DNA of 64,000 bases, taken from NCBI RefSeq assembly GCF_004363235.1, contig NZ_SNYW01000006.1:620001-684000 (forward strand), given 5' to 3'. Shown piece by piece: positions 11,063 to 29,288 of this stretch (its first letter is position 1; each line of letters begins with the position of its first letter). The notes under the pieces were generated by a model. That model was given only the letters and a program-made list of their open reading frames with translations, searched no databases and was not told where the DNA came from. The DNA is from Dongia mobilis. GTDB taxonomy: Bacteria; Pseudomonadota; Alphaproteobacteria; Dongiales; Dongiaceae. The translations under genes and the position numbers were made by a program.

Positions 11063-13336
11063 TTAACGCTTGATGTTGATGACCTCGGCCAGCATCTCGT
11101 CAGCCGTCGTGATGACGCGGGTATTGGCGGCATAGGATCGTTGCGTCACGATCATCTTCGAGAATTCCTCGGCGATGTCGACGTTCGAACCTTCCACCGC
11201 ACTGGCGCGCAGGCTACCGCCGCCGTTCTCGCCGGCACCGGCAATACGCGCCGAGCCGCTGTCGAAGGTTTCGGTGAAGGCCTGGCCGGTCTCGCGCTTC
11301 AGGCTGTTGGGATCATAGAACTGGGCGAGCGGTATCTTGAAGTAGACCCGGGTATTGCCGTTGTCGTAGTTGAGCTCGACATCGCCGTTGTCACGGATAG
11401 TCAGGTCCTTGAAGATGCCCTGCGGCAGGCCGTCCTGGGTGAAACGGCGGACGTCGATCGTCTCGCCGCCGAACTGCGTGACGCCGACCGTCGTCTGGAA
11501 CTGGCCGAGGTTCAGTTCGATGGTCTGCGGGCCGACGCCGTAATCGACCTGGAAGGTGATGATGGCGTCGTCGCCCTGGCTCTGTGCCGTCGGGGTCGTT
11601 GCGTTGCCGGTAATGTTGTAGGCGTTGCTGAGGCCGACCAGCATGCCGGCCGCCGTGCCGGTGCCGAACTGCACGTCGATGAAGGCATCCGCCGAGCCGT
11701 TGGTGGCGCTTACGGTCGCCGTGAAGGGTGTTCCGGCATCGATCGCCGTCAGCTGGATGGTGCCACCAAGCGCCGTGGCGGTGACGCCAAGGGCGGAATT
11801 GGTATTGATAAGGTTGGCGATGCCCTGGGCTACGTCGTTGAGGCTGGTTTCCGTGCCGTTGGAGACGTAGTTGATCGAAAGCGTGCCCACATTGACGGTC
11901 CAGGTATCGCCGATTTCGCTGGGTCCGACGGTGCCGGCCAAGGTGACCGTGTCGACCTGGGCGGTCGGCAGTCCATTCGGCGTGGTGTTGGCGCTGGAAG
12001 CGCCCAGGAAGTCGGTGTTGGTAACGTTGCCAGAGGTGATCACGGCATCGGTGAAGGCAAAGGCAAAGGTGCCAAGGGGCGCATCGGCATTGATCGAAAG
12101 GGTGTCGCCGTCGACGATGGAGGCGGTCACCAGCGGACCGACGGTGACGTCACCATTGATGGCGGCGATCAGCGCATCGCGCGCCTGGGCCGTGGTGTAG
12201 CCGGCGAGCGGCGCCGTTATCGTGATCGGGTTGCCGTTGATTGTGATGGTCACGTCGTCGCCGGGATTCATGGCACCCGGGAAGTCGACCACGGTCGTCT
12301 GCCCGGAGCCGGTTCCGCCGAGGGTGGCGGTATAGGGCGTGCCTGGATCGTCGGCGGTGACGTCGAAGGTGGTGGCGGTGAGGTTGCCGGCGGTGACCTG
12401 GGCGGCCAGGCCGGGATTGCCGTTGATGGCCGAAACCAGGGCCGCCCCCACCTGGGCCTGGGTATAGCCGCCGACCGGTGCGGTGACGGTGACGGAATTA
12501 GAGCCGATGGTGAAGGAGAGGGTTTGGCCGAAGGCAAGGCCGTCGGCCGGCATGGTAAAGGTGTCGATCTGGGCGACTGCCGGAACATTGGCCGTGGTGT
12601 TGGCGATGGCCATGTTCTGGTCATTGACGCCGACGATGGTACCGGACACCGGGTCCAGCGTGCTGTCAGCGGCGATGATGTCCAGCTGCCAGAGATTGTC
12701 GGCGCGCTTCACCCATTCGAGCGAAATGGTGTGCGGATTGCCGAGCGCGTCATAGACCCGGATGTTGGTGGGCGCCAGCGGCGGCTGCGGGTTCACGACG
12801 GATGAGGCTGGCAGGTTGCCGACGAATTCGAGTTCCGAGGTCGGTTCGGGCGCATCGATCGTCTGGACGATCTGGATCGGTGCCAGGCTGGCGGTGTCGG
12901 GCACGCCGGTATCCTGGTCGACTGCCCAGCCGTTCAGGAAGTAGCCGCCGTTGTTGACCAGATAGCCGTCGCGGTTGACCTCGAAGTCGCCGGCGCGGGT
13001 GTAGTACTGGATCTCGTCGAACAGGGTCTGGTTGGCGTTCTGGATCGTCGGCCGGCTGACGATGAAGAAGCCCTGGCCGCTGATCGCCATGTTCGAGATG
13101 CTTTGGGTCTGATTGACGTTGCCTTGCAGTGCGTTGGCATAGGAGGGCGAGGCGATGACGCCGCCGGGCTGGTGGAGCGCGGCATTCGACACCGTGATCA
13201 GCGTCTCGAAACGGGTGTCGATCTTCTTGTAACCCGTGGTCTGCGAATTGGCGATGTTATCGGAAATATGGCCAAGCGACCGCGACTGCGCGTTGACGCC
13301 GCTGACCGCCGTGAACATGGCCCCGAGAATGCTCAT
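11063..13336 (-). CDS. flgE: Flagellar hook protein FlgE with three inserted beta-repeats
   Basis: FlgE polymerises into the flexible hook. The N-terminus MSILGAMFTAVSGVNAQSRS with DNIANSQTTGYKK, and the C-terminus EEFSKMIVTQRSYAANTRVI with EMLAEVINIKR, are diagnostic. The preferred start is the ATG at 13336 with GAGG 8 bases upstream; a GTG at 13348 would add four residues. The 757-residue length is nearly double a typical hook protein. Residues about 255-550 contain three copies of the beta-rich repeat also found in FlgK and FlgL; the third (VDTVTLAGTVGPSEIGDTWT) is closest to the FlgL copies. The gene heads the hook operon behind a sigma-54-type promoter at 13387-13402. Confidence 0.96.
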   Translation of the reverse strand: MSILGAMFTAVSGVNAQSRSLGHISDNIANSQTTGYKKIDTRFETLITVSNAALHQPGGVIASPSYANALQGNVNQTQSISNMAISGQGFFIVSRPTIQNANQTLFDEIQYYTRAGDFEVNRDGYLVNNGGYFLNGWAVDQDTGVPDTASLAPIQIVQTIDAPEPTSELEFVGNLPASSVVNPQPPLAPTNIRVYDALGNPHTISLEWVKRADNLWQLDIIAADSTLDPVSGTIVGVNDQNMAIANTTANVPAVAQIDTFTMPADGLAFGQTLSFTIGSNSVTVTAPVGGYTQAQVGAALVSAINGNPGLAAQVTAGNLTATTFDVTADDPGTPYTATLGGTGSGQTTVVDFPGAMNPGDDVTITINGNPITITAPLAGYTTAQARDALIAAINGDVTVGPLVTASIVDGDTLSINADAPLGTFAFAFTDAVITSGNVTNTDFLGASSANTTPNGLPTAQVDTVTLAGTVGPSEIGDTWTVNVGTLSINYVSNGTETSLNDVAQGIANLINTNSALGVTATALGGTIQLTAIDAGTPFTATVSATNGSADAFIDVQFGTGTAAGMLVGLSNAYNITGNATTPTAQSQGDDAIITFQVDYGVGPQTIELNLGQFQTTVGVTQFGGETIDVRRFTQDGLPQGIFKDLTIRDNGDVELNYDNGNTRVYFKIPLAQFYDPNSLKRETGQAFTETFDSGSARIAGAGENGGGSLRASAVEGSNVDIAEEFSKMIVTQRSYAANTRVITTADEMLAEVINIKR

Positions 13337-13386
13337 CAGATACCTCACCCGTTTGGCGCAATGGGATTCCTTCTGGGGGCTCGGTA

Positions 13387-14697: not shown

Positions 14698-15435
14698 CTA
14701 TTTCTCCTCCAGCTTGCCCTTCAGGTCGAAAAACAGGATGTCGCGCTGTTTCTTCGGCCCCTTGACCGGCTCGACGCCGTGGAAGCAGGCAGCCGTCTTC
14801 GGAAAGGACACGACCACATTGGGTGCATAGGGTGCCGTGTAGACATGGTCGAAATCCTCGAAGTCGAGGTGCGGCCCGCCTTCCTGGGTGAAGCGCCGGT
14901 CCTTCGGCACATAAAGCGCGGTGCCGAGCTCCTGCGAGGAATCGTCCTCGGCCAGGTAGAACAGCATGGAAACCAGCTTGGTGATGTTGTCGGTATGGGG
15001 GCCGAGGCTGTAGGTTTCCATGTCGCGCATCAGGAAGGTCTCGTGCCAGACCTTCAGCCCGCGCCCGCCGCCCTTGCCGGTGTCGCGAAAGCGCCCCTCG
15101 ATATAGGGGCGGAACAGGTTGAACACCGCGCCGGAAAACTCGCCGTCGCCCAATGTCTCGAACATGTGGCGCCAGAAATCCCGCTGCGCCGGGGCCAGGT
15201 TGGTCTTGTCGAGATCGCTTGGGAACAGGGAGAGGCGGGCGCGGGAATAGCCCGTGCCGACACGGCCCGTATCCGCCAGGACGGCATATTCCTCATGCGC
15301 CGGCAGGTTGCGCCGCAATTCCTGAAAGAAGCCGGCGGGGAAGACGTCGGTGACATAGATGTGTGCGAAGGGATAGGTCCGGATCTGGGCATTGGCGATC
15401 CGGTAGATGAGGTGGAACTTAACGTCGGAAAACAT
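14698..15435 (-). CDS. 2-oxoglutarate/Fe(II)-dependent oxygenase-like protein
   Basis: Predicted soluble, 245 residues from the ATG at 15435 (MFSDVKFHLIYRIANAQIR). A likely facial triad is visible: His147-x-Asp149 in LGPHTDNITKLVSMLFYL and His219 in TAACFHGVEP. Arg231 follows in KKQRDILFFD and could bind 2-oxoglutarate. This pattern matches prolyl-hydroxylase-like (2OG-FeII_Oxy) proteins often found in capsule or modification loci. The start overlaps the end of the FkbM methyltransferase gene by 17 bp, so the two are co-transcribed. The substrate is unknown; a sugar or a protein side chain is possible. Confidence 0.72.
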   Translation of the reverse strand: MFSDVKFHLIYRIANAQIRTYPFAHIYVTDVFPAGFFQELRRNLPAHEEYAVLADTGRVGTGYSRARLSLFPSDLDKTNLAPAQRDFWRHMFETLGDGEFSGAVFNLFRPYIEGRFRDTGKGGGRGLKVWHETFLMRDMETYSLGPHTDNITKLVSMLFYLAEDDSSQELGTALYVPKDRRFTQEGGPHLDFEDFDHVYTAPYAPNVVVSFPKTAACFHGVEPVKGPKKQRDILFFDLKGKLEEK

Positions 15436-16243
15436 ACTCGCCCACTCCGGTAAAGGCGCCCTCGGTGCGTGCCGCCCGCGCGACCTGGGCGGGATCATAG
15501 CTGAAACCCAGTTCCGACAAATGGTCCAGAATGCCGCGGTGCTCGGCCAGATGCGGGTTGATCTCGATGATCAGCGACTTCACGGCGGGATTGCGCAGCG
15601 TCTCGGCGGCGCCGGCGATCACCTTGTGCTCGAAGCCGTCGACGTCGAGCTTGATGTGGCTGGGGACCGGCATCACGCCATCCGCGATCAGTTGGTCGAT
15701 CCGGGCCGAGAAGCAGCCCTGGATGAAGGGCGATTTGCGCTGCTCCAGCTTGAAATCGACCGATTCGTCGAAACTGTGGCAGGAGCCGCCGATGGTGAAG
15801 TCCGAGAGGTGGATGGTGCTGAACTTGGCCTCGTCCGACAGCGCACAGCAGAAGGCGGTCACCCGCTCCGACAGGCTGTTGCTGACGATGTTCCGGCAGA
15901 GCAGGGCGTAGTTCTGCGATTCGGGCTCGAAGGCGAAGACCCGGGCGTCCCGGATGACGGCGGCGAACACCGTATACATGCCGACATTGGCGCCCACATC
16001 CAGCAGCGTCCCGCCCATCTCGATGGATTCCAGCCACTCGATGGTCGAGGGTTCCTTGGTGAACAGCGTCTGCACCCGCCAGAGCGGAGTCTTGCCCGGC
16101 AGGGCATAGCGCAGCTTCTTGCCCTTGTAGGGAATGCCGATCACCGGCATGCCGGCATCGTATCGCTTCACCGCCTCGATGACGCGCGGGTCGATCTGCA
16201 TATTCGGTCGCCTCGGCTCTGTCTCTGCCAGCATCTGGAGCAT
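15419..16243 (-). CDS. FkbM-family SAM-dependent methyltransferase
   Basis: The 274-residue product has the FkbM-type core: LLDVGANVGMYTVFAA (SAM-binding loop, about residues 80-95), VFAFEPESQNYALLCRNI and SHIKLDVDGFEHKVIAGA. Members methylate hydroxyl groups of sugars or lipids. The ATG at 16243 has GAGG seven bases upstream; an internal ATG at 16201 is less well placed. It is first of a two-gene unit with the oxygenase-like gene. The neighbourhood suggests O-methylation of a flagellar or surface glycan, which cannot be shown from sequence. Confidence 0.88.
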   Translation of the reverse strand: MLQMLAETEPRRPNMQIDPRVIEAVKRYDAGMPVIGIPYKGKKLRYALPGKTPLWRVQTLFTKEPSTIEWLESIEMGGTLLDVGANVGMYTVFAAVIRDARVFAFEPESQNYALLCRNIVSNSLSERVTAFCCALSDEAKFSTIHLSDFTIGGSCHSFDESVDFKLEQRKSPFIQGCFSARIDQLIADGVMPVPSHIKLDVDGFEHKVIAGAAETLRNPAVKSLIIEINPHLAEHRGILDHLSELGFSYDPAQVARAARTEGAFTGVGEYVFRR

Positions 16244-16415
16244 GCCATTACCTCAACCGTAGGGGGGCGTTAACAAATTGTCCAGATTTGGTCAGCATAA
16301 TCCGTGCCATCGGGAATCACGGACATTAAATATTGCCGGGCATTAAATGCCGGGCCGTGGCATGCTTCCTGCTTGGTTATCCGGCAGCCTTGGCACGTCA
16401 GAGATGGAGCGACAG

Positions 16416-16979
16416 ATGGCCAGCCCCAGCGGACAGATCAGCGAAGAATACCGGCGCATGCAGGAGAAATTGCACGAGAACCCCAATTACGGGGTGGCTT
16501 CGGTGCAATACGCCCCCGTTGTCGCCAAGATCATGCAGCAGACCGGGACCACCGAATTGCTGGATTACGGCGCCGGCAAGGGGCGCCTCGGCGAGACCCT
16601 GCGCCAGATCATCTCGACGCCGCTCAAAATCCATCATTACGACCCGGCGCGGCCGGAATGGGCGGCCGAGCCCAGCCCCTGCGGCTTCGTCTGCTGCATC
16701 GACGTGCTGGAGCATATCGAGCCGGATTTCCTGGACAATGTACTGGACCACCTGAAACGCCTGGTGATGAAGCGCGGCTTCTTCACCGTCCATACCGGTC
16801 CGGCCATCAAGATCCTGCCGGACGGCCGCAACGCGCATCTGATCCAGGAGCCGCCCTCCTGGTGGCTGCCGAAATTCATGGAACGCTTCGACCTCACGGT
16901 CTTCCAGAAGATGCCCCAGGGATTCTGGGTCCTGGTGGAGCGCAAGCCGGAAAAGCCGGTCCTGGTCGAGCCGGTCTGA
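16416..16979 (+). CDS. Class I SAM-dependent methyltransferase
   Basis: The product is 187 residues from the ATG at 16416, which has GGAG six bases upstream; longer in-frame starts exist at 16347 and 16404. Motif I is LLDYGAGKGRLGE, and an aspartate-containing motif IV follows as CCIDVLEHIEPDFLDNVLDH. A conserved HLIQEPPSWWLPKF segment lies near the C-terminus. Sequences like this are usually annotated only as methyltransferase-domain proteins. It is divergent from the FkbM gene and ends at a strong terminator. Its substrate is unknown; the neighbourhood points to glycan or flagellar modification. Confidence 0.75.
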   Translation: MASPSGQISEEYRRMQEKLHENPNYGVASVQYAPVVAKIMQQTGTTELLDYGAGKGRLGETLRQIISTPLKIHHYDPARPEWAAEPSPCGFVCCIDVLEHIEPDFLDNVLDHLKRLVMKRGFFTVHTGPAIKILPDGRNAHLIQEPPSWWLPKFMERFDLTVFQKMPQGFWVLVERKPEKPVLVEPV

Positions 16980-17052: not shown

Positions 17053-17778
17053 TCAGTTGCTGAGGATGGCGTCCTTGTGCAGCTTGGCGACGCGGCCGCC
17101 GCCGGCCGTTTTCGCCGAGTGCACCGAATGCGCCATCAGTTCCTGCCAGCCGCGGGTTTGGTTGGCGGCCTGGTGTTCCGCCTTCCATTCCTCGGTGTAT
17201 TCGCTGCCCGCGGTTTCCGGGAAGATCGGCATGCCCTGGGTGTAATGCACCAGCTTGGCGTCGCTGCGCGGCGGGTCATAGCCGACCAGGTGGTTCCATT
17301 CGCGCGGCAGGTCACCGACCAGTTCCTCCGGCAGCCAGTCGAGGCCGTGCGGCGCCTTGCACTGCTTCGGATCCTCGACATAGTCCGGGGTGAGGATGCG
17401 GTTCGCCGGATGGCCGCAATTGAACAGGATCATCGAGGCCCATTCGAACCGCTTCACGTTCTTCGAGACCATGGCGGCGTAGCGGTCGTCGGTCAGGGCA
17501 AACAGCTCGGCCAGATCGGCAAGGCACAGATAGTCGATGTCCATGAACATCGCCCAGCCCTGATAGCCGCCGAGCCAGGGGGTGAGAAAGCGGCTGAAGG
17601 TGAAGGGGGTCAGGCCCTTGCGGGTCATCGGCAGGGTGGGGAGAACCAGTGGCGTGATCGCAACCGGCTTGGAGCAGCGGCGCAGGATGCTGAACTGCAG
17701 CACGTTGTAGGCGACCGCCTGGCGGTGGTCATAGCCGATGAAGATGCGCAGGGGCTGCTCGTAGGTCTGTCCGGACAT
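17053..17778 (-). CDS. GT8-like glycosyltransferase
   Basis: The 241-residue product starts with LRIFIGYDHRQAVAYNVLQF and contains FSRFLTPWLGGYQGWAMFMD followed by IDYLCLADLAELF. The DxD (Asp-Ile-Asp) in that block is the metal/nucleotide-sugar site of GT-A enzymes. The arrangement resembles family 8 (LPS galactosyl/glucosyltransferase-like) but the protein is short. The start ATG at 17778 has GGAG upstream; an upstream TTG at 17802 is unlikely. It is the last gene after flbT-flaF-unknown, so it may add sugar to a flagellar component. Confidence 0.7.
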   Translation of the reverse strand: MSGQTYEQPLRIFIGYDHRQAVAYNVLQFSILRRCSKPVAITPLVLPTLPMTRKGLTPFTFSRFLTPWLGGYQGWAMFMDIDYLCLADLAELFALTDDRYAAMVSKNVKRFEWASMILFNCGHPANRILTPDYVEDPKQCKAPHGLDWLPEELVGDLPREWNHLVGYDPPRSDAKLVHYTQGMPIFPETAGSEYTEEWKAEHQAANQTRGWQELMAHSVHSAKTAGGGRVAKLHKDAILSN

Positions 17779-17798
17779 CGCCGAAACTCCGTTATCTC

Positions 17799-18602
17799 TC
17801 AAAACAACGCGTCGTACAGGGCACCGTTCAGCTTGCTGGTGGCCGAGGTGCCGATCGCCGGCAGGTTGGCGATGAAGGAATAGCTGGAACTGAGGCTGCT
17901 GATCAACGCGTCGGTGCCGGCGCCCAGGCTGGTCGAAAAGCCGAACTGGTCCTGGTTGGGGTTATAGCCCTGTTCGATCGTGTCGTAATCGTTGACATAG
18001 GTGCCCTGGGTCAACTGGACCGCATACTGGATGTTGTTCTTCATGTTGGGATCGGCCCCGGGCATGCGCGACAGGCGCATGATGTAGTCGCCCTGCTTCA
18101 TTTCCAGCCTGCCTTCCCGCAGGACGGTGTAGCGGGCATAGGCGTCGCCGGCCTTGGGATCACTGTCGACCAGCAGCTGGCCGCTCGATTTGGAAAAGAC
18201 CTGGACGCGGAGCTGGTCCTTGTAGGTCGGGTCCGCGATCAGGGTGCCGAGCTTGGTTGCCGCCGTGGTGTTGATGCGAAACTTGAACACATCGACGGCG
18301 TCAGACTGCGACAGCGCGCTGAACAGGTTGAGGCGCGAATTGTTCTTCCGCAGCACGCCGATGTCGCGTGCCGTCATGTTGTTGTCAATCCGGACGTCGT
18401 AGCTGGTCTTCTCGAACTCCTGCACTTGGCCGGATTGGGACAGCTTGATCTGGTCGATGATCTCGGTGATCTCGTCCGTGATGCCGGACAGGTCCGGCCC
18501 GCTGGTCGTCGCCGCGTTATTCGCGCCCGAGGTGGTGTTGAACAGCGACGAGGTGTCGCTGGTCAGCAATCCGGTCGGGGCTGCGGTGATTGCGGTCGAC
18601 AT
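17799..18602 (-). CDS. Unrecognised protein of the flaF/flbT operon
   Basis: The 267-residue product is not a family I recognise. It has no signal peptide or membrane segment. The first ~50 residues are Ser/Thr/Ala-rich and disordered-looking. A helical part follows (ITDEITEIIDQIKLSQSGQV). Then comes a beta-rich part (about residues 100-200) with DVFKFRINTTAATKLGTLIA and a closing segment GRLEMKQGDYIMRLSRMPGA. That alternation weakly resembles a PPC-type beta-sandwich. The C-terminal 60 residues are Ser/Gly-rich. It lies 25 bp after flaF and overlaps the upstream side of the GT8-like gene, so a role with the flagellum is likely but undefined. Confidence 0.6.
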   Translation of the reverse strand: MSTAITAAPTGLLTSDTSSLFNTTSGANNAATTSGPDLSGITDEITEIIDQIKLSQSGQVQEFEKTSYDVRIDNNMTARDIGVLRKNNSRLNLFSALSQSDAVDVFKFRINTTAATKLGTLIADPTYKDQLRVQVFSKSSGQLLVDSDPKAGDAYARYTVLREGRLEMKQGDYIMRLSRMPGADPNMKNNIQYAVQLTQGTYVNDYDTIEQGYNPNQDQFGFSTSLGAGTDALISSLSSSYSFIANLPAIGTSATSKLNGALYDALF

Positions 18603-18627: not shown

Positions 18628-19077
18628 TCAGGCGGTCACGTTCATGACGGGCCTGGCCTGGCTGCCCACCAAGGGGGCTTCCGTCGATCGCGGCGCCGCC
18701 GGTTGCGCGGAATCCGCCGGCGGGGTCATCGACAGGCCCTCGGCAATGGCGCGGTTGATATCGATGATCGGCTGGATCTTGCTGCCGTCGAGATCGGCCA
18801 GGCGCTGCATGATGTGGCGATCCATCAGGACCGACAGGGCGAGGACGTTGTCCCTGATTTCCTTGGGCAATTCGTTGCCGGGGTCGATCAGCGAGGCCTG
18901 GAAGATCGACCAGAGCCGCTGATTGAGAATGAGGGCCGCGCGCAGGCTCTCGCCGGCGTCATCGATGATCCGCGCGGCCGCCATCAGGCGGCGCGACGCC
19001 TCGGCCAGCGCCCAGGCCTCGGTGCTGCGCGGGTCCATATCCTTCGGCTGACTGGCGTAACCGACCGCTGCCTTCAT
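18628..19077 (-). CDS. flaF: Flagellar biosynthesis regulator FlaF
   Basis: FlaF works with FlbT in alphaproteobacteria to couple flagellin synthesis to assembly; in Caulobacter it is needed for flagellin export. The 149-residue product has the FlaF core TEAWALAEASRRLMAAARII and ALILNQRLWSIFQASLIDPG, followed by NELPKEIRDNVLALSVLMDR. A Pro/Ala-rich tail of about 30 residues is extra. It is located 72 bp after flbT, with a hairpin between them. Confidence 0.93.
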   Translation of the reverse strand: MKAAVGYASQPKDMDPRSTEAWALAEASRRLMAAARIIDDAGESLRAALILNQRLWSIFQASLIDPGNELPKEIRDNVLALSVLMDRHIMQRLADLDGSKIQPIIDINRAIAEGLSMTPPADSAQPAAPRSTEAPLVGSQARPVMNVTA

Positions 19078-19149: not shown

Positions 19150-19506
19150 CTAGAAGAGCTTCGCCGTCGCTTTGAGGGCCCGGTAATAGTCCCCAGAATG
19201 CACTAACCGTGCCACCTCGGTGAGCTCGGTCAGGGAATCCGGCCGGTGACGCATGGTTTCCGCCAGGATGATCTCGAATTTCTCAAGATTTCCAGGCGCA
19301 TCTTCCGGGAAGAGGTAGATCAACTGAATGATCAGATAGAGCTTCTTCTCGATCGTATCGGCCTTTTCTTCCTTCATGACCTCGCGGCCGCGCAGGAAAT
19401 TGGCCTTGTTGAAGAGATAGAAACTTCCTGGTTCCTCGCCCCGTCCGATGACGGCACCGTTAACAATTACCTTTTCCCCGGGTCGCAGGGTGAACTTGAG
19501 TGGCAA
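19150..19506 (-). CDS. flbT: Flagellin translation regulator FlbT
   Basis: FlbT represses flagellin expression by binding the 5' leader of flagellin mRNA in Caulobacter when hook assembly is blocked. The 118-residue product is typical. It starts MPLKFTLRPGEKVIVNGAVI, then NFLRGREVMKEEKADTIEKK and LYLIIQLIYLFPEDAPGNLE. It is downstream of flagellin 1 on the same strand and upstream of flaF. Confidence 0.97.
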   Translation of the reverse strand: MPLKFTLRPGEKVIVNGAVIGRGEEPGSFYLFNKANFLRGREVMKEEKADTIEKKLYLIIQLIYLFPEDAPGNLEKFEIILAETMRHRPDSLTELTEVARLVHSGDYYRALKATAKLF

Positions 19507-19682: not shown

Positions 19683-21929
19683 TTAGAACAACCGCAGGAT
19701 GGCCTGCTGCGCCTGGTTGGCCAGAGAAAGCGAGATCGTACCCAACTGCTGCCTGGTCTGCAGCGTCAGGATGTTCGCGCCCTCTTCGTTCTGGTCAGCC
19801 GCGGTCAGCTTGTTGGCACCCTCAATCAGCACGTTCGAGAACTCCGCGGTATAGGTTTCTCGAGTCTGGATGATGTTGAGGTTGGTACTGAGGTTCGACG
19901 ATGCGGCACGCAGTGTCAGCTTTGCAGCATCCAACTGCCTGATCGCATTGTCGATGTCAGCCCGGTCGTTCCAGCCGTTCTGGGCGAAGTCGAGCTTCAA
20001 TCCCTGACCGTTGGTCTGAACGTTCTGACTGATCACCGTGACGTTGCTGGTGTTGTTCTCGTTGAGCTGCACCTGCAGGTTGTTGGCGTCACTGGCATCG
20101 GTCACCTGCTGGGTCTTGATGGTGGCCGTATCGCCGGTATTGGCTTTGCGGACATCGAACAAGACTTCGCGTTCGGCGGTGAATTCGCCGCGGACCTTGT
20201 AGTTGATCTCCTGCCCGGTTTCGACGAGTGTCGTCGCCGAAAGCGAGAAGGCAAAGACCGCGCCGCTGTTCAGGCCGCCCTGGACGCTGAAGGTCAGCGT
20301 GGACGCCGCCGCCAGCGAGAAGCCGGACAGCGTGATGGTCACCGACGCCGTACCGCCGAACTCGTCGGTGTACTGGAAGGTGGCCGAGGTCGAGGTCAGG
20401 TCGGTGACGGCGATGTTGATGCTGGTCACCGTATTGTCGGTAAAGCTGCTGGCGCTCGTGATGCCGATGAGGCCAACATTGATACCGTTGGTTTCGATCG
20501 TGTTGCTGACTTCGGTCAGGTCGGCCGAGGCAGCGGAGGCCACGAACTTCAGCTCGCTGACGTTGAACGCCACCGACGCTTCCGCATCACCCGAGATCAG
20601 GCCGGCGAAGGCGAATTCGCGGCTGGTCTGGCCGACGCTGAAGGCGAGCGACACGGAGGTGCCCGATTCGGTGTCGGTTGCGGTGATGTTGAACTGCGTG
20701 AAGTTGCCGGTCTCGTAGTCGAACGAGGTGCCGACCACGGCAAAGGAAACCGTGGTATTGGCCGAGACCGTCGAAACGCTCGCCACCTTGATTTCGCTGA
20801 TGGCGGTCGCACCGGTACCATAGGCGAGGCCGACCTTGGCGTCGTACTTCGACGATTGCAGCAGGGCGCGCTCGTCGACGGAGACACGGGCCGTGCCGGA
20901 ATCGAACGCGAACGCGTTCTCGCCATTGGCCAGCTTGCTCTGGCCCAGAAGGTTGAGGCCATCACGGGTGATGACTTCGCCGTTCTGGTTGGTCACGATC
21001 AGCTGCAGATCGACGTTCTTCTCGATCACCGAGGTGCCGACGCCGGCGGTATCCGGCACGTCCTCGATGGCGTCGAAATCGACGTCGAAGCTGACATTGG
21101 TGCCCGTGGTGAAGCTGTGCGCGAAGCGCAGCGTGACACCATTGGACTGGGCGATCTGCCAATCCAGCGACGTGAAGGTCTGGGTGACCGTCTCGTTGCC
21201 TTCGGTGACCGTGAAGGTCTTGTCCTTGCCCTGGCCGCCCGTCAGCTTGATCGAAACCGAATCGTAGTTGAAGCGGGTGGTCGAAGCAAAGCCGCTGATC
21301 TCGAGGTTCGAGATGCCGCGGTCGGTCTGCGCGCGGGCGATGTCCGCGGTCGAGCCGGAGACGGTGCCCTCGCCGGTGACCGAGATCTTGTACTCGTCCG
21401 CCGAGACGACGTTGGTGACGCGGGCGCCACCGATGCCGGGCAGGGCGTTGACCAAGGCCTTCGAGGAAGCCGTGGCGTCGAGCGACAGACCGGAACCGAC
21501 CAGCAGGTTCTTGCCCTGGTAGCCCGAATCGGCCGCGAGGCGGTCGATCTGGCGCAGCAGCGAGTTGTACTGGTTGGCAAGGTTGTTGCGCAGTGCGACG
21601 GACGAAGCGTCGGTGCCCAACGAGCCGAGAGCCTGGGTGGTCAGACCGCGGGCCTGTTCAACCAGTTCCTCGATCTTGGTGATGCCGGTATCGGCAGACT
21701 TGATCGTGCTGATCGCCTGGCCGAGGCCGTCCTTGAGGCCGTTCAGATCGCCCGCGCGCTGGGTCAGGCCCTTGGCGGCAAAGAAGCTTGCCGGGCCGTC
21801 GAGTGCGCTGTTGATCTTGTTGCCGGTCGCCAGGCGGAGCTGGGTGCGCTCCAGGCTGACGGTGGTCTGTTGCAGCAGCAGGAGGTTGCTGCGGATGCCA
21901 GCGGTAAGCTGGACGTCGTTGGTTGCCAT
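19683..21929 (-). CDS. fliC: Giant flagellin (first copy)
   Basis: Filament subunit of 748 residues, against a usual 270-500. The polymerising ends are intact: LTAGIRSNLLLLQQTTVSLE with RLATGNKINSALDGPASFFA at the N-terminus, and ADQNEEGANILTLQTRQQLG with SLANQAQQAILRLF at the C-terminus. The central region (about residues 180-600) is Ser/Thr/Val-rich beta sequence, with TEGNETVTQTFTSLDW and DEFGGTASVTITLSGFSLAA; this would be the surface-exposed D2/D3 part. The start ATG at 21929 has AGGGAG upstream, and a sigma-54-type promoter lies at 22012-22027. Its closest relative in the window is the second flagellin. Confidence 0.96.
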   Translation of the reverse strand: MATNDVQLTAGIRSNLLLLQQTTVSLERTQLRLATGNKINSALDGPASFFAAKGLTQRAGDLNGLKDGLGQAISTIKSADTGITKIEELVEQARGLTTQALGSLGTDASSVALRNNLANQYNSLLRQIDRLAADSGYQGKNLLVGSGLSLDATASSKALVNALPGIGGARVTNVVSADEYKISVTGEGTVSGSTADIARAQTDRGISNLEISGFASTTRFNYDSVSIKLTGGQGKDKTFTVTEGNETVTQTFTSLDWQIAQSNGVTLRFAHSFTTGTNVSFDVDFDAIEDVPDTAGVGTSVIEKNVDLQLIVTNQNGEVITRDGLNLLGQSKLANGENAFAFDSGTARVSVDERALLQSSKYDAKVGLAYGTGATAISEIKVASVSTVSANTTVSFAVVGTSFDYETGNFTQFNITATDTESGTSVSLAFSVGQTSREFAFAGLISGDAEASVAFNVSELKFVASAASADLTEVSNTIETNGINVGLIGITSASSFTDNTVTSINIAVTDLTSTSATFQYTDEFGGTASVTITLSGFSLAAASTLTFSVQGGLNSGAVFAFSLSATTLVETGQEINYKVRGEFTAEREVLFDVRKANTGDTATIKTQQVTDASDANNLQVQLNENNTSNVTVISQNVQTNGQGLKLDFAQNGWNDRADIDNAIRQLDAAKLTLRAASSNLSTNLNIIQTRETYTAEFSNVLIEGANKLTAADQNEEGANILTLQTRQQLGTISLSLANQAQQAILRLF

Positions 21930-22011
21930 GAAATTGCTCCCTTTGGAGGCAAATTGCGCTGAAACTTTGTTTCAACGGCCGCAAGCGGAATGCGGGCGGC
22001 TGGATCTAGGA

Positions 22012-22027
22012 AGCAATTTCCCTGCCA
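22012..22027 (-). promoter_or_regulatory. Sigma-54-type promoter of flagellin 1
   Basis: Minus strand TGGCAGG-GAAA-TTGCT retains the invariant GG and GC with correct spacing. It is 83 bp upstream of the flagellin start, leaving an untranslated leader of roughly 70 bases, a possible FlbT target. Confidence 0.7.
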
Positions 22028-22272
22028 GATGGAAAATTCTGCCGAATTCCCGGTATTTGGCGGTTTTTCGGGGGCCAATCCGGCGCTGGCTGGGCAATTG
22101 TTGCCGGGCACGGCAAGAATTGCCTAGGCAAGATCGATCAGGGGGAAAATCCTGCCGATTCTTCAATGACTTAGGATTAACAAAATGTTAATTTTGCCGA
22201 TCTAGACCGGATCCGGCTGGTACAGGATGTGCATGAGGGGTGCAGATTATGCCTGGGCAGGAGCGAAGTGTC
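22028..22272. other. Divergent regulatory region between flagellin 1 and the TPR-glycosyltransferase gene
   Basis: With the promoter at 22012-22027 and the flagellin leader this forms a 343-bp gap between start codons. It contains the perfect CtrA-type box at 22177-22191 and no convincing gene. GGCACG followed by TTGC occurs near 22115-22130 but with the wrong spacing for a sigma-54 promoter. Confidence 0.6.
22177..22191. promoter_or_regulatory. CtrA-type box upstream of the TPR-glycosyltransferase gene
   Basis: Perfect TTAA-N7-TTAA with spacer CAAAATG, 81 bp upstream of the preferred start at 22273. That distance matches the CtrA boxes in front of flgB, cheY and the fliO/fliP operon. Confidence 0.7.
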
Positions 22273-25200
22273 ATGGATGCGATGCTGGACATCATCGATT
22301 TTACCGGCCAGGGAGTGGCCGGCGGCAAGACGGGTGCCCTCGCGCGTCCGGTCCAGCCAGTTGCGGCGGCGCCGAAACCGGCTCCGGCGCTGAGCCGCGA
22401 GGCGCAGGCCAGGGTCCAGAAACTGCTGCAGGATTCGGCCCAGTACCATCGCCAGGGAAAGCTGGCCAAGGTACGCCAGGCACTCGAGCAAGTGCTTGAA
22501 ATCGAACCGGAAAACGATACCGCGCTGTTCAATCTGGGGATCATCTATCGCGACGAGAAGGAGACCGCCAAGGCGGAACTGACCCTGCGCCGGGCGATCA
22601 AGTCCAATCCCGAGCGGATCGAGGCCTATCACGCGCTGGGCGACCTGCTGTTCAATGCCAAGCACGCGCTGACGGCGGTCAAGGCCTATGAATCCGGCCT
22701 CGAGCGCGCGCCGAACCATCTCAAGATCCTGATCAACCTGCTGCGCGCCCGCGTCGCCTTGCGCCAGTTCAGGGAGATCGAGGCGCTCAGCCGCCGCATC
22801 CTGGCGATCGAACCCGACGAGGCGGACATTCTCTGCTATCTGGCGCTGGCCATCCTGCGCCAGGAAAAGAGCCTGTCGGAGGCCCTGCAACTGGTCGACA
22901 AGGCGATCGGGCTGGATCCCAATCATGTGCGCTCGATGGTCGTCAAGGAACGGATCGCTGCGGCGATCCCTGACCCTGCCATGCAGAAGGCGGCGCAGGA
23001 CTGGCTGATGGAACGGGCCAGGACGGGCGACATCACCGATATTCGCGACATGAAGGAATTGTACAACTGGGCCGACGCCGTCAAGGAATGCGCGCCCTAT
23101 ATTCACGAATACCTGCAGCGCCACCCGGATGATTCCGAGGCCGAGAGTGCGCTGATGCATACCATCATCGCCGATGGCGACTTCGAAGAAGCGCACCGCA
23201 TGATCGAAAAGCTGGCGGCGCAGTTTCCGGACAAGCCGCAGCTCGAGATGTCGCGCTGTCTCAATCTGTTCCGGCTCGGCCGCTTCGAAGACGCCATGGC
23301 CAAGATGGAGTGCCGCTGGGCCCGCGACCAGGCCGGCGCCAAGCTGGATTTTCCCTGCCCCGACTGGAAGGGGGAGGATGTCCGGGACGGCAAGCTGGTG
23401 ATCTATGCCGAACAGGGTGTCGGCGACCACATCATGTATGCCGGGCACATGATCCCGGTGCGCGAGCGGGCCAATCACATCGTGTTCGAGGTGACGTCGC
23501 GCCAGACCACCCTGTTCCAGCGCAGTTTCCCCGATTTCGAGATCATCGACCGGGTCAACCTGCCGCCGAACTGGCGCAAGGGCGACGTCAAGGCGAAGGT
23601 GGCGGCCGGCGATCTCGCCTATGTCATGGGCGAGGATTACCGCGACCTGCCGGGCCGCGCCGGCTTCCTTATTCCGCATCCCGGCCTGCTGCAGCGGTTG
23701 CGCAAGAAGTACCAGGCGCAGTTCCCGGGCAAGATCCTGGTCGGAATTTCGTGGCGCTCGGGCAATCGCGACAGTTCTGCCGTCAGGTCGCTGGAGCTCG
23801 AGAACTGGCTGCCGATCCTGAAGAATCCCAATTGCGGCTTCGTCAGCCTGCAATACGGCGATGTCGCGCGCGACATCGAGGACCTGAAGTCCGAATTCGG
23901 CATCGAGGTCCTGCACGACCAGAGCGTCGATGCGATGGGCAACATGGACCCGTTCACCGCCCAGGTGGCGGCGATGGACATCGTCATCTCGGTCGACAAC
24001 AGCACGGTGCATTATGCCGCCGGTCTCGGCAAGCCGGTCTGGGCCATGCTGCCGATCAATTCCGACTGGCGCTGGCTGACCGAGGGCGACAAGTCGATCT
24101 GGTACGATTCCCTGCGCCTGCTCCGGCAGCACAGGGGCGATACCTGGGAAGGCCTAGTCGAGAATGTCGGCAGCATGGTCGCCGGCCTCGATGCCGGCGA
24201 ATTGCAGGCCGCCCATATCGCCATGCTGCGGCGCTGCGCCGAGACGCTGCAGCGCTTTGGGCGCACTTCCGAGAACGAGGATTACTGCAGGATGCTGCTG
24301 GCCGAGGACGCCTGCAAGGATGTCGCCCTGCACGGCATCGCCCAGGCGGCCATGAAGGTGGGCAAGGCCGAGGACGCCGTCGCCATCCTCGCCCGGGCGA
24401 TCGAACTGGCGCCGGATCGCGCGGAACTGCGGGCGGAATTGGCCGTGGCGCTGAATGCCGCCGGCGAGCATGAGCGCGCCGAGCGGCTGGCGCGCGACAC
24501 GCTCCGCCAGTTCGGCGACAGCGAAGCGGCGCTGATTGCGATGGGGCGCGTACTCATGCGCCTGGAGCGTTTCGACGAGGCGAGCGATTTCTTCGCGCGC
24601 GTCCTGCGCATGAAACCCAATCACGTTCAAAGCCGCGTCAACCTGGCCAAGCTGCTGGGAGCCCAGGGCGAATGGGATCTGGCGCGCAGCAACTATGCCA
24701 AGGCGCTGGCCTTTGCCCCCACCTCGGCGGTGGCTCATGTCGGGGCCGCTGAGGCAGCTCTGCGCCAGCGCGACTGGAAAACCGGCTGGCAGCATTTCGG
24801 CTGGCGCTTCGGCGTCGCCCCGGGGCGGCTGCCGCGCCACCTGGAGACCATCGATCCGAAGAACTATCCGCCGGAATGGAACGGCGCCCATCTCAAGCGC
24901 AAGCGCATATTCCTGCGCGCCGAGCGCTCGATGAGCGAGCAATTGCTGTTTGCGCCGCTGCTGAACCAGGCGATGGCCGAAGCGCGCTACATCCTCGCCG
25001 AATGCCATCCCAACCTGTTGCCGCTGTTGCGGACGCTCTTTCCCAAGATCGATTTCGTCCCCCAGGAGACGCTGCAGCCCAAGGATATCGTCGAGAAGCG
25101 CATCCAGATCCAGACCAGTCTCGGCGATCTTGCCGCGCGCTACCGCGCATCGGCGGCCGATTTCGCGTCCAGCGAGAATTTCCGCCTGCCGGTCGACCCT

Positions 25201-25686
25201 GGCCTGGCGCGGCAGTTCGAAACCGAGTATCGCGAGGTCATGCCGGGCCGCCGCCTGATCGGCCTCAGCTGGCGCGGCGGCGACGGCGCGCTGAAGGCCG
25301 CATTGACCGACTGGCTGGGCCTGTTCGATGCCGAGGACGTGGCGGTCGTGGCCTTGCAGCACAGCCCGCGCCAGGCTGAACTCGATGCGCTGGCGGCAAC
25401 CGGGCGCAACATGATCATCGACCCGCGCGGGGCCGAAAGCCTGGCGTCGGCGGCGGCCCAGATTGCGGCCCTCGATGCGGTGATCGCGGTCAATGACGTC
25501 ACCGCCCATCTGGCGGCCCATCTCGGCAAGCGGGTGGTCAAGCCCGTGTCGCGGGTCGACCATTGGTGCTGGGGGGCTCCGGAGACGCCGCAACTGTGGT
25601 ACAAGAACGTCACCACGATCTGCCAGCAGACCGGCGGCGACGATACCATCGCGCGGGCCGTGCGCGCCGCCATCGGCCAGGCCTAG
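22273..25686 (+). CDS. Double TPR-glycosyltransferase protein, probable flagellin glycosyltransferase (FlmG-like)
   Basis: The ATG at 22273 (AGGAG upstream) gives 1137 residues; a GTG at 22240 is less likely. The order is TPR repeats (about 45-230), a glycosyltransferase-B-like domain (about 375-630) with EQGVGDHIMYAGHMIPVRER and SVDNSTVHYAAGLGKPVWAM, a second TPR block (about 680-840), then a second transferase-like domain (about 870-1137). In the second domain the glycine-rich EQGVGDHIMYA motif is replaced by AERSMSEQLLFA, so it is probably degenerate. Caulobacter FlmG is a TPR plus glycosyltransferase protein that sugars flagellin. Placement between two flagellin genes and the CtrA box support that role here. 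Acceptor and donor are unproven. Confidence 0.75.
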   Translation: MDAMLDIIDFTGQGVAGGKTGALARPVQPVAAAPKPAPALSREAQARVQKLLQDSAQYHRQGKLAKVRQALEQVLEIEPENDTALFNLGIIYRDEKETAKAELTLRRAIKSNPERIEAYHALGDLLFNAKHALTAVKAYESGLERAPNHLKILINLLRARVALRQFREIEALSRRILAIEPDEADILCYLALAILRQEKSLSEALQLVDKAIGLDPNHVRSMVVKERIAAAIPDPAMQKAAQDWLMERARTGDITDIRDMKELYNWADAVKECAPYIHEYLQRHPDDSEAESALMHTIIADGDFEEAHRMIEKLAAQFPDKPQLEMSRCLNLFRLGRFEDAMAKMECRWARDQAGAKLDFPCPDWKGEDVRDGKLVIYAEQGVGDHIMYAGHMIPVRERANHIVFEVTSRQTTLFQRSFPDFEIIDRVNLPPNWRKGDVKAKVAAGDLAYVMGEDYRDLPGRAGFLIPHPGLLQRLRKKYQAQFPGKILVGISWRSGNRDSSAVRSLELENWLPILKNPNCGFVSLQYGDVARDIEDLKSEFGIEVLHDQSVDAMGNMDPFTAQVAAMDIVISVDNSTVHYAAGLGKPVWAMLPINSDWRWLTEGDKSIWYDSLRLLRQHRGDTWEGLVENVGSMVAGLDAGELQAAHIAMLRRCAETLQRFGRTSENEDYCRMLLAEDACKDVALHGIAQAAMKVGKAEDAVAILARAIELAPDRAELRAELAVALNAAGEHERAERLARDTLRQFGDSEAALIAMGRVLMRLERFDEASDFFARVLRMKPNHVQSRVNLAKLLGAQGEWDLARSNYAKALAFAPTSAVAHVGAAEAALRQRDWKTGWQHFGWRFGVAPGRLPRHLETIDPKNYPPEWNGAHLKRKRIFLRAERSMSEQLLFAPLLNQAMAEARYILAECHPNLLPLLRTLFPKIDFVPQETLQPKDIVEKRIQIQTSLGDLAARYRASAADFASSENFRLPVDPGLARQFETEYREVMPGRRLIGLSWRGGDGALKAALTDWLGLFDAEDVAVVALQHSPRQAELDALAATGRNMIIDPRGAESLASAAAQIAALDAVIAVNDVTAHLAAHLGKRVVKPVSRVDHWCWGAPETPQLWYKNVTTICQQTGGDDTIARAVRAAIGQA

Positions 25687-25771
25687 GTGGTGACCAGCCG
25701 GGACACGTCACGGGCGGGGTCGGTTGCGCTCTGGCGCCGGCGCAAATTCGTGGGAGCTGAGGTAGGGTGAC

Positions 25772-26914
25772 ATGAATCGCAAATCCCGCCGCACCGCGGC
25801 GAAACACCTGCGGACCGCCGATACCAGGCGCGCCGATGCGGCGACCTCCCAGGTCCTGATCGACCAGGCGGTGGCGGCCGCCCAGTCCGGCCGCTGGCAG
25901 GAGGCCGAGAAGGTCCTCCGCTATCTGCTCTCGGTCGATCCCGACAATGCCGAGGCGCTCCACATGATGGGGATGGCCCTGGGCAGCACGGGCCGCGCCA
26001 CGGAGGGCATCGACATGCTCCGCCGTGCGACCGAACTGAAGCCCTCGGAGGCGCTCTACTGGCAAAATCTTGCGGCCTGCCTCTTGGGTGCCGAACAGCC
26101 GCACAAGGCGGCCGAGGCAGCGCGGCATGCGGTCACGCTGGAGCCGGGCTACGTCGCCGCCTGGAGTCGTCTGGGTGACGCGCTGGCGGAGACCCAGGAT
26201 TTCAACGGCGCCTGCGGCGCCTATGAGCGCGTGCAGGCGCTGGCCGGACAGGAACTTGGCAACCTGAAGCGGATCGCCAATTGCCAGATGAATCTCGGCA
26301 GGCTCGACATTGCCGAAGCGACGTTGAAGAGCGCCGATGCCATGGCGCCGGATGACCCCGAGATCCTCGCCAATCTTGGCGCCGTCTTGGTCGCGCGCAG
26401 CAATTATGTCGACGCCGTCGAAGTACTGGCGAAGGCGGTCGAGCATGACAGCAAGAAATTTACCGTCGTCTATCATTACGCCCGGGCCCTGGCCGGTGCC
26501 GGCAAGGCGGAACCCGCCCTGCTCTGGGCGCGCAAGGCGACGGCACTCGAACACCGCTCGCTCAATGCCTGGGTGCTGCTCGGCAAGCTCGCGCTCGATC
26601 TCGGGCATCTCGCCGAAGCCGAAGTTGCCGCCCGGCGCGCGACGCAGCTGGGGCCCGACACCAGTGAAGCGAGGCAGCTGAACCAGCGGCTGAAAGGCGT
26701 CGCGCCGGCGACCAAGCAGACCCCGGCCTACATGGATTTCCACCTGGGCGATCCGGATGCAGTCGCGCCGGTTCCGGGCGTGCCGCTCAATGTCACCTTC
26801 ACCGACGCGCCGGTTCAGAAAGTTCCGTCTCCGAAGGATCCGATGAAAAAGGACGACGCGAAAGCGCCCGCACCTGACGGCACTTTCGATTTCACCATCC
26901 TGAAAATCGACTGA
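25772..26914 (+). CDS. TPR-repeat protein between the flagellin genes
   Basis: The 380-residue soluble protein starts MNRKSRRTAAKHLRTADTRR, a basic leader common in TPR glycosylation proteins. About seven TPR units follow (residues 25-310), for example WQEAEKVLRYLLSVDPDNAE and LDIAEATLKSADAMAPDDPE. A Pro/Lys/Asp-rich tail (about 310-380) ends in GTFDFTILKID. No catalytic domain is visible. It lies 85 bp after the TPR-glycosyltransferase gene on the same strand and may act as adaptor for flagellin or the transferase. Inferred from neighbours only. Confidence 0.65.
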   Translation: MNRKSRRTAAKHLRTADTRRADAATSQVLIDQAVAAAQSGRWQEAEKVLRYLLSVDPDNAEALHMMGMALGSTGRATEGIDMLRRATELKPSEALYWQNLAACLLGAEQPHKAAEAARHAVTLEPGYVAAWSRLGDALAETQDFNGACGAYERVQALAGQELGNLKRIANCQMNLGRLDIAEATLKSADAMAPDDPEILANLGAVLVARSNYVDAVEVLAKAVEHDSKKFTVVYHYARALAGAGKAEPALLWARKATALEHRSLNAWVLLGKLALDLGHLAEAEVAARRATQLGPDTSEARQLNQRLKGVAPATKQTPAYMDFHLGDPDAVAPVPGVPLNVTFTDAPVQKVPSPKDPMKKDDAKAPAPDGTFDFTILKID

Positions 26915-26936
26915 GCTTCTGCCGGCAGGAATGGAA

Positions 26937-26966
26937 GCGGCCGCCCAGGGATCCCTGGGCGGCCGC
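26937..26966. repeat. Perfect 30-bp palindrome between convergent genes
   Basis: Perfect 15-bp inverted repeat arms with no loop (centre GGATCC; arms contain GCGGCCGC). It lies 23 bp after the TPR gene stop. It could act as a terminator-like cruciform or hairpin for the plus-strand TPR gene, although no T-tract follows. Confidence 0.65.
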
Positions 26967-26988
26967 CTGCCGTTCGGCGCAACAGAAA

Positions 26989-27021
26989 GCCGGCCCGGTG
27001 GGAGCGAATCACCGGGCCGGC
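26989..27021. terminator. Hairpin downstream of flagellin 2
   Basis: A 12-bp stem (GCCGGCCCGGTG / CACCGGGCCGGC) with a 9-base loop, 33 bp past the minus-strand flagellin stop. No clear U-tract. It probably marks the 3' end of the flagellin transcript. Confidence 0.6.
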
Positions 27022-27053
27022 TGCTGGGCGCGTCGCAGGTAACCCGCGACGGC

Positions 27054-29288
27054 CTAGAACAGGCGCAGAATGGCCTGCTGCGCCTGGTTGGCGAGGCTGA
27101 GCGAGATGGTGCCGAGCTGCTGCCTGGTCTGCAGCTGCAGCATGTTGGCGCCTTCCTCGTTCTGGTCGGCCTGGACCAACTTGTTGGCGCCCTCGGCCAG
27201 CACGTCGGTGAACTCCTTGGTGTATTCGAGACGCGTGGTGATGACATCCAGGTTGTTGTTGAGTGCCGAGGCGGTGGATCGCAGCCTGATCTTGGCGGCA
27301 TCCAGCATCGCCTTGGCGTTGTCGATGTCGGCCCGGTCGCGCCACTCGTTCTGCGAGAAGTCGACAGCCAGACCCTGACCATCGGTCCTGACGTTGCGGC
27401 TGACCACGGTCAGCTGATTGGTGTTGGTCTCGTTCAGCTGGACGGTCAGGTTGTTCTGGTCGGTGCCGTCCGTCACCTGGATCGTGTTCAGGGTCGAGGT
27501 GATGCCGGCCTGGGCCGCCCGCACGTCAAAGCGCAGGTCGTCGGGGGCGGTGAAGGCACCGATGGCGTTGTAGGTCAGCGTCGCCTCGGCATCCTCACGC
27601 AGTGACGTGCCGCCGATCGTGATCTGCACCACGGCACCGCTGTTGACGCCGCCCTCGATGACGAAGCTCAAGACCTGGGCGGAATCGAGGGTGCCCGTCA
27701 CCGTCGCCTTGCCGCCATAGCCGTCGTCAAGCACGAAGGTCGAGGCCGAGGCATCCGTCTTCAGCGAGATGGTGATCTTGTGGGCAAGGTTGTCGCCGAG
27801 GCCGGTGATGCTGGTCAGGCCCACATTGCCGGCGGAGATTGCGCCGCCGAGGACCTGCTCGGTCGCGTCGGCCTGGGTTGCATCCGAGGCCGATGCCACG
27901 GTGACGCCGTTGAGCCCGGCCCGCAACAGGTTGATCTCGACGCTGGTGCCGTTATCCGCGATGGAGCTGAAGGTCGCGAGGCCATCGGCGCTGATCGACA
28001 ATGCGGCGGTCGAGAACGGTCCGGTGGCCGCCACCGTATAGGTGTTGAACCGTCCGGAGATGAAGTCGAAATCGGCCGGGTCGGCGGTGGCGGCGACGGT
28101 GTAGGTATAATCGTTGGAGATGCCCGTCGTCGCGATCGACGGCGTGCCGACGATGGCCGACGCGGCCCGGCCATAGGCCTCGCCCACCGCGGCGCTGTAG
28201 GCCGCGGATTGCAGGATGGTGCGTTCGTCGATGGTCAGGCGCGGCGTGCCGGTGTCGAAATTCCAGCTGTTCTCGCCGTTGGCGAGCTTCTCCTGGCCGA
28301 GCAGGTTGTCGGCCGAGCGGGTGATGTTCTGCCCGACGCCGTTGAAATTGGCGACACTGACGCCGAGGTCGACGAACTTCTCGATAATCGACGTGCCAAG
28401 ACCGTTGGTGTCCGGCACATCGTCGATCAGGTCGAAATCGATGTCGAAATTGATGTGGGTGCCGCTGGCAAACTGGTGGTCGAAGTTCAGCAGCTTGCCG
28501 GTCGCCTTGGCGATGTCCCACTGTTCCGTGGTGAAGGTCTTGGTGACGGAAACGCCGCCTTCGGTGACCGTGAACGTCTTGTCCTTGCCCACGCCGCCGG
28601 TATAGCGGACGACCACGGGGTCAAAATTGCCGGACGTCTTGCTCTGGAAGCCGGAGACGCGCAGGTTGGTGATGCCGCGGTCGCGCTCGGCATTGGCGAT
28701 GTCGCTGGCATTCGCGGAAATGGCGCCGTTGCCGCTGATGTCGATGACGTAGTCGTCCGCCTTGGTGACATTCGTCACGCGCGACGCGGTGACGCCGGGC
28801 AGCGCGTTGGTCGCCGATTTGGAGGACGAGGTCGCGTCGAGCCGGATACCGGAGCCGAGCAGCAGGTTCTTGCCCTGGTACTGCGAATCCTCGGCCAGTT
28901 TGTCGATCTGGCGCAGCAGCGTGTTGTACTGCTCGGCCAGGGATTTGCGCAGCTCGACCGAATTCGAATCGCTGCCGAGATTCTGATAGGCGGTGGTGAT
29001 GAGGCCGCTCGCCTGTTCGAGCAAACTCTCGATCTTGGTCATGCCGGTATCGGCGGCCTTGATCGTCGAGATCGACTGGTCGATCGAATCCTTCAGGATG
29101 GAAAGATCATCGGCGCGGCGGTTGAGGCCCTTGGCGGCAAAGAAGGCGACCGGGCCGTCCAGCGCAGAGTTGATCTTGTTGCCGGTCGCCAGGCGCTGCT
29201 GCGTGCGATCGAGCAGCGATGTCGTCTGCTGCAGCAGAAGCAGGTTGCTGCGGATACCCGCCGTCAATTGAATGTCGTTGGTCGCCAT
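27054..29288 (-). CDS. fliC: Giant flagellin (second copy)
   Basis: Filament subunit of 744 residues from the ATG at 29288 (GGGAG upstream); an upstream in-frame start at 29369 would add a non-flagellin leader and lies only 4 bases from the sigma-54 -12 element. Termini closely match flagellin 1: LTAGIRSNLLLLQQTTSLLD with RLATGNKINSALDGPVAFFA, and the final LANQAQQAILRLF. The central region shares a block with flagellin 1 (GGVGKDKTFTVTEG; FDIDFDLIDDVPDTNGLG) but then diverges, with its own Ser/Thr/Ala beta stretch. The pair are clear paralogues with faster change in the exposed part. Confidence 0.96.
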   Translation of the reverse strand: MATNDIQLTAGIRSNLLLLQQTTSLLDRTQQRLATGNKINSALDGPVAFFAAKGLNRRADDLSILKDSIDQSISTIKAADTGMTKIESLLEQASGLITTAYQNLGSDSNSVELRKSLAEQYNTLLRQIDKLAEDSQYQGKNLLLGSGIRLDATSSSKSATNALPGVTASRVTNVTKADDYVIDISGNGAISANASDIANAERDRGITNLRVSGFQSKTSGNFDPVVVRYTGGVGKDKTFTVTEGGVSVTKTFTTEQWDIAKATGKLLNFDHQFASGTHINFDIDFDLIDDVPDTNGLGTSIIEKFVDLGVSVANFNGVGQNITRSADNLLGQEKLANGENSWNFDTGTPRLTIDERTILQSAAYSAAVGEAYGRAASAIVGTPSIATTGISNDYTYTVAATADPADFDFISGRFNTYTVAATGPFSTAALSISADGLATFSSIADNGTSVEINLLRAGLNGVTVASASDATQADATEQVLGGAISAGNVGLTSITGLGDNLAHKITISLKTDASASTFVLDDGYGGKATVTGTLDSAQVLSFVIEGGVNSGAVVQITIGGTSLREDAEATLTYNAIGAFTAPDDLRFDVRAAQAGITSTLNTIQVTDGTDQNNLTVQLNETNTNQLTVVSRNVRTDGQGLAVDFSQNEWRDRADIDNAKAMLDAAKIRLRSTASALNNNLDVITTRLEYTKEFTDVLAEGANKLVQADQNEEGANMLQLQTRQQLGTISLSLANQAQQAILRLF

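Follow-up and report, generated by a model that had tools for sequence, protein, structure and literature searches.

The locus and the question it raises

Work on FlmG left open how a cytoplasmic O-glycosyltransferase selects its acceptors, and a locus in the flagellar cluster of Dongia mobilis raises this question again. Between two large flagellins lies a protein in which a TPR part and a glycosyltransferase (GT) domain occur twice, with the second GT having lost a motif that the first retains. This degeneration, conserved across a family, is the interesting part of the locus, and we asked what the altered half might do.

The window analysed is a stretch of 64,000 nucleotides from a genome of 4.19 Mb whose nearest relatives are Dongia and Rhodospirillaceae MAGs. 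The region is part of a large flagellar cluster, with FliG, FliF, FliK, FlgK and FlgE on its low side and FlgH, basal-body rod proteins and FliP on its high side. Two flagellins, with the lengths and positions given in a preliminary description of this DNA (748 and 744 residues), bracket the TPR-GT-TPR-GT gene and then a TPR-only gene, the second TPR protein that the same description had placed between them. The features of the locus are:

15419-16243, minus strand: FkbM-type methyltransferase, possible glycan modifier (TIGR01444)
16347-16979, plus strand: Methyltransf_23 methyltransferase, possible glycan modifier (domain match; conserved neighbour)
17053-17802, minus strand: GT8-like protein (weak Pfam match; relatives adjoin TPR-GT genes in unrelated genomes)
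18628-19077, minus strand: FlaF (PF07309)
19150-19506, minus strand: FlbT (PF07378)
19683-21929, minus strand: large flagellin A (flaA), 748 aa (Flagellin_N and Flagellin_C matches; orthologs at syntenic loci)
22249-25686, plus strand: TPR-GT-TPR-GT protein, 1145 aa (Pfam TPRs, ortholog alignment, AlphaFold model with pLDDT 82)
22393-23274, plus strand: TPR1 domain (Pfam TPRs, AlphaFold model)
23275-24159, plus strand: GT1, presumed catalytic (ortholog conservation, structural match to GT9 3tov)
23410-23427, plus strand: GT1 motif EQGVGD (ortholog alignment, motif scoring)
24232-24819, plus strand: TPR2 domain (Pfam TPRs, AlphaFold model)
24823-25623, plus strand: GT2, degenerate transferase half (alignments, motif scoring, tree, GT2-profile search)
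24922-24939, plus strand: ERSMSE, GT2 counterpart of the GT1 motif (ortholog alignment, motif scoring)
25772-26914, plus strand: TPR-only protein, 380 aa (domain search; orthologs at syntenic loci)
27054-29288, minus strand: large flagellin B (flaB), 744 aa (Flagellin_N match, syntenic orthologs, AlphaFold)

The large flagellins

Over their full length the two flagellins share 54% identity. Each exceeds the Flagellin_N cut-off and falls just short of the one for Flagellin_C (21.0 and 21.7 versus 23 bits), and the AlphaFold model of the 744-residue protein has helical ends (residues 10-133 and 652-743) and a beta-rich core of approximately 435 residues. The polymerising ends are intact, as had been proposed. 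The cores had also been described as Ser/Thr-rich over some 400 residues. The core is indeed of about this size, and Ser and Thr make up 25% and 20% of it in the two proteins, compared with 10.5% in neighbouring proteins, but in other flagellins the region between the ends contains 22-47% Ser+Thr. The content seen here is thus ordinary, and we rejected it as special evidence of glycosylation. Nor does the label "giant" suit proteins of this length, as published giant flagellins exceed 1000 residues (PMC6248924); what the Dongia pair shares with them is the combination of intact polymerising ends and enlarged outer domains.

Architecture and fold of the TPR-GT protein

A search of the genome found one TPR-GT gene. 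Its open reading frame (22240-25686) opens at GTG 22240, and the aligned starts of the orthologs make the conserved ATG at 22249 the probable start. Pfam matches and the AlphaFold model agree that TPRs and GTs alternate twice along the chain, in the order originally read from the translation, and the two GT halves can be aligned to each other. The full-length model (pTM 0.67, such that the relative placement of the domains is uncertain) has TPRs at residues 50-342 and 649-854 and GTs at residues 382-645 and 886-1144. Modelling of the two GT halves had been suggested as a check, and both are predicted to be GT-B-like.

GT1 matches the GT9 structure 3tov (Z 17.5, 260 residues, rmsd 3.4), and OGT and SPINDLY (GT41) are also among the top structural matches. 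Its sequence has no significant match to solved structures, these two included, and the relation to GT9 and GT41 is by fold only. OGT and SPINDLY likewise join a TPR superhelix to a GT-B transferase, but with one GT per chain and nucleocytoplasmic eukaryotic targets. Foldseek matches to the whole chain were mostly driven by the TPRs, with low TM-scores, and so carry little information on GT2. Among 10 orthologs 83 of the 295 GT1 positions are invariant, and the EQGxGD and DNST-H motifs of GT1 are intact. GT2 has changed more quickly than GT1 (0.41 versus 0.57 in mean pairwise identity) and is, together with TPR1, the fastest-diverging part of the protein.

Motif loss and retention of GT2

In the window protein EQGVGD of GT1 becomes ERSMSE in GT2. 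The motif was scored in an alignment of 135 TPR-GT domains, comprising 11 GT1, 9 GT2 and 115 others, with named genomes of several phyla included. The first glycine of EQGxGD is present in 11/11 GT1, 111/115 other domains and 1/9 GT2, and the second in 11/11, 112/115 and 0/9, respectively, leaving GxG intact in none of the GT2s. The loss of the glycine motif, initially noticed in the window protein, is therefore consistent across all nine orthologs scored, and GT2 lacks motif residues that its relatives conserve, one mark of a pseudo-glycosyltransferase. The acidic residue of the motif, Asp in GT1, is Glu in eight of the nine GT2s, a substitution also found in 9/115 other domains. This Asp may be the counterpart of the heptosyltransferase catalytic base, a point on which no argument here rests; a literature search on the GT9 catalytic aspartate found nothing. 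At the DNST motif, every GT2 has Leu or Val in place of Ser and Asp at the place of Asn, while the conserved His that follows is present in 4/9. At the sequence level GT2 is consistently altered, with fixed residues of its own.

Differences between GT2s fall at codon positions in the order 3 > 1 > 2, the same as in GT1, which indicates purifying selection on the GT2 frame. In the tree the GT1s and the GT2s each make up a supported group of their own, which dates the duplication to before the radiation of the family; a clade uniting GT1 with GT2, as expected from intragenic duplication, was not rejected (p = 0.85), a result that does not establish it. When 385 alphaproteobacterial genomes were sampled with a GT2 profile, scores of 361-407 bits were obtained only within Dongiaceae, and the next-best match scored 179 bits, little more than Dongia's own GT1 (about 146-160 bits); among these genomes the GT2 signature was absent outside the family.

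Retention of the fold together with family-wide loss of the catalytic signature suggests that GT2 helps GT1 rather than catalysing. This help might consist of dimerisation or stability, with no specific role in acceptor choice. Many conserved GT2 residues do look structural (Trp, Gly, Leu), and the faster divergence of this half would suit such a module. However, all members of the family retain GT2 along with the TPR2 that belongs to it, and a plain stabiliser does not obviously explain a derived Asp fixed in all orthologs; we consider this explanation doubtful. Alternatively, GT2 could still be active with a changed donor or acceptor preference, making the protein a two-step enzyme that adds two sugars. 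The Glu at the acidic position would allow for residual activity, the invariant Asp of the altered DNST motif is a conserved feature of its own, and frame and fold are kept. Against this, the glycines are nearly all lost, the DNST Ser is replaced throughout and the His is kept in fewer than half, and in other multi-GT relatives, for example that of Azospirillum soli, none of the domains has lost EQGxGD. An active GT2 therefore seems unlikely to us.

Conservation and synteny in Dongiaceae

Proteins matching across both TPR-GT halves were sought in 41 related genomes and found in 11, all of the same family and including the window's own (G000, G001, G002, G003, G005, G006, G009, G012, G013, G015 and G016). 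Where contigs permit, these genomes share a syntenic block of flaB, the TPR-only and TPR-GT genes and flaA, then FlbT, FlaF, a 267-residue protein and the GT8-like gene, with TPR-GT identities of 33-71%. In G002 the locus is split across contigs, and this genome seems to have more than one TPR-GT gene. All 11 carriers have large flagellins (G002 has one, at the contig break), and identity to the 744-residue flagellin stays at 50-84% while that of the TPR-GT protein drops to 33%. It could be argued that the TPR-GT protein does not serve flagellin and that its position is a historical neighbourhood, given that such genes are common (GT2-profile matches in 142/385 alphaproteobacterial genomes) and that many of the TPR-GT loci fetched have no flagellin nearby, but this is improbable in view of the strict synteny despite such divergence and the absence of the double TPR-GT from those Dongiaceae in which the pair of large flagellins is missing.

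Two family members without the large flagellin pair (G010 and G014) carry arrays of TPR-GT genes (L046 and L048), in which single open reading frames of approximately 2400-2500 residues hold several GT units. The short hydrophobic C-terminus of the TPR-only protein (FDFTILKID in the window) resembles that of most orthologs (VDLTVLKIG and LDQIFIR, for instance) and is a possible docking motif. The 267-residue protein (17799-18602, minus strand) between FlaF and the GT8-like gene is conserved in the Dongiaceae loci and matches nothing in Pfam or NCBIfam; it is a flagellar-cluster protein without a name.

Sugar pathway and glycan-related neighbours

PseB, PseC, PseG and PseI, the four pathway enzymes scored, are above curated cut-offs in the window's genome, whose PseG carries a fused cytidylyltransferase-like stretch. 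From the presence of this pathway the donor is most likely CMP-pseudaminic acid. PseI (pseudaminic acid synthase) is above cut-off in 11/11 double TPR-GT genomes and in 1/6 of the rest of the family (Fisher p about 0.001, kinship ignored). The single exception, G004, has PseI and no detectable flagellin, so that the use of pseudaminic acid is not confined to flagella; the PseG and PseI genes of the window's genome adjoin a surface-carbohydrate gene, and the sugar may serve a surface polysaccharide. In G001 only a few genes separate a third large flagellin, of 784 residues (L117:1522-13843), from genes for NeuB-like, NeuC and surface-carbohydrate functions, which again connects large flagellins with nonulosonic acids.

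Relatives of the GT8-like protein lie directly beside TPR-GT genes at 12 of 52 loci outside Dongiaceae (32-43% identity, with gaps of less than 20 bases or overlaps). This ties the GT8-like protein to TPR-GT glycosylation independently of the Dongia synteny, and to judge from such neighbourhoods it is likely to belong to a general toolkit for glycosylation by TPR-GT proteins. The FkbM-type and other nearby methyltransferases may modify the glycan.

Comparison with known systems

FlmG of Caulobacter crescentus (CCNA_01524), the published biochemistry of which (PMC7591256) favours reading the Dongia protein as a flagellin glycosyltransferase, has an N-terminal TPR part and a C-terminal GT-B-like domain, a unit that the Dongia protein has twice. 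FlmG-type loci of Caulobacter relatives adjoin flagellins, FlaF and FlbT, as in Dongia; Phenylobacterium and other alphaproteobacterial loci have a single TPR-GT beside the same genes. The pseudaminic acid pathway is likewise present in both genomes. FlmG, however, has 596 residues, a single unit and small flagellins, compared with 1145 residues, two units and flagellins of 744-748 residues in Dongia, and the GT domain of FlmG-type proteins falls on a different branch from GT1. Orthology to FlmG was rejected (AU p = 0.01 for GT1 joining the FlmG-syntenic loci), the tree being a quick one with long branches and Caulobacter FlmG itself lying outside the set. FlmG-like O-glycosylation by a duplicated enzyme, as originally envisaged, is plausible from synteny, sugar pathway, neighbourhood and duplication; orthology to FlmG is not supported.

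Synteny with flagellins, FlaF and FlbT, the pseudaminic acid pathway and the FlmG-type neighbourhood together support O-glycosylation of flagellin, and the Dongia TPR-GT protein probably attaches sugars to both large flagellins. With modest confidence, we lean towards an FlmG-like cytoplasmic system for the two large Dongiaceae flagellins in which a catalytic GT1 is joined to a retained, non-catalytic GT2. TPR1 would bind flagellin monomers before export, like the TPR part of FlmG in Caulobacter, and GT1 would move the sugar onto Ser/Thr residues within the outer, beta-rich domains. TPR2-GT2, born of an old duplication, would have been kept as a non-catalytic half, more likely to hold the acceptor or act as a scaffold than to be a second transferase. 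The position of GT1 outside the FlmG-type group, the PseI of flagellin-less G004 and the Glu retained at the acidic motif position in eight of nine GT2s count against this explanation.

A parallel is offered by GtfA-GtfB of the accessory Sec system, in which a catalytic GT and an inactive, acceptor-binding partner carry out Ser/Thr O-glycosylation of an exported protein (PMC12809243). These are two separate proteins from Gram-positives, GtfA being of GT4 type and the sugar GlcNAc, whereas the Dongia protein is one chain with TPRs, and the parallel is one of analogy, not homology. Tentatively, the duplicated TPR-GT unit might be a single-chain, Gram-negative counterpart, an acceptor-positioning pseudoenzyme for its catalytic twin that occurs family-wide with large flagellins. 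If so, a pseudo-glycosyltransferase would have arisen inside a duplicated, fused bacterial TPR-GT protein, and with intact and degenerate copies in one chain throughout the family, catalysis could be separated from acceptor recognition by simple mutants. A literature search for double TPR-GT flagellin enzymes found no paper.

Repeated TPR-GT units beside a flagellin and FlbT are also present in Azospirillum soli (L081:2124-10513), where a 632-residue flagellin accompanies a 1976-residue protein whose three listed GT units all keep EQGxGD, unlike Dongia GT2. Elsewhere in the window, an 847-residue protein between FliK and FlgK (6760-9303, minus strand) has a sub-threshold Flagellin_C match and may be an enlarged FlgL; FlgE (11063-13348) is likewise large, at 761 residues.
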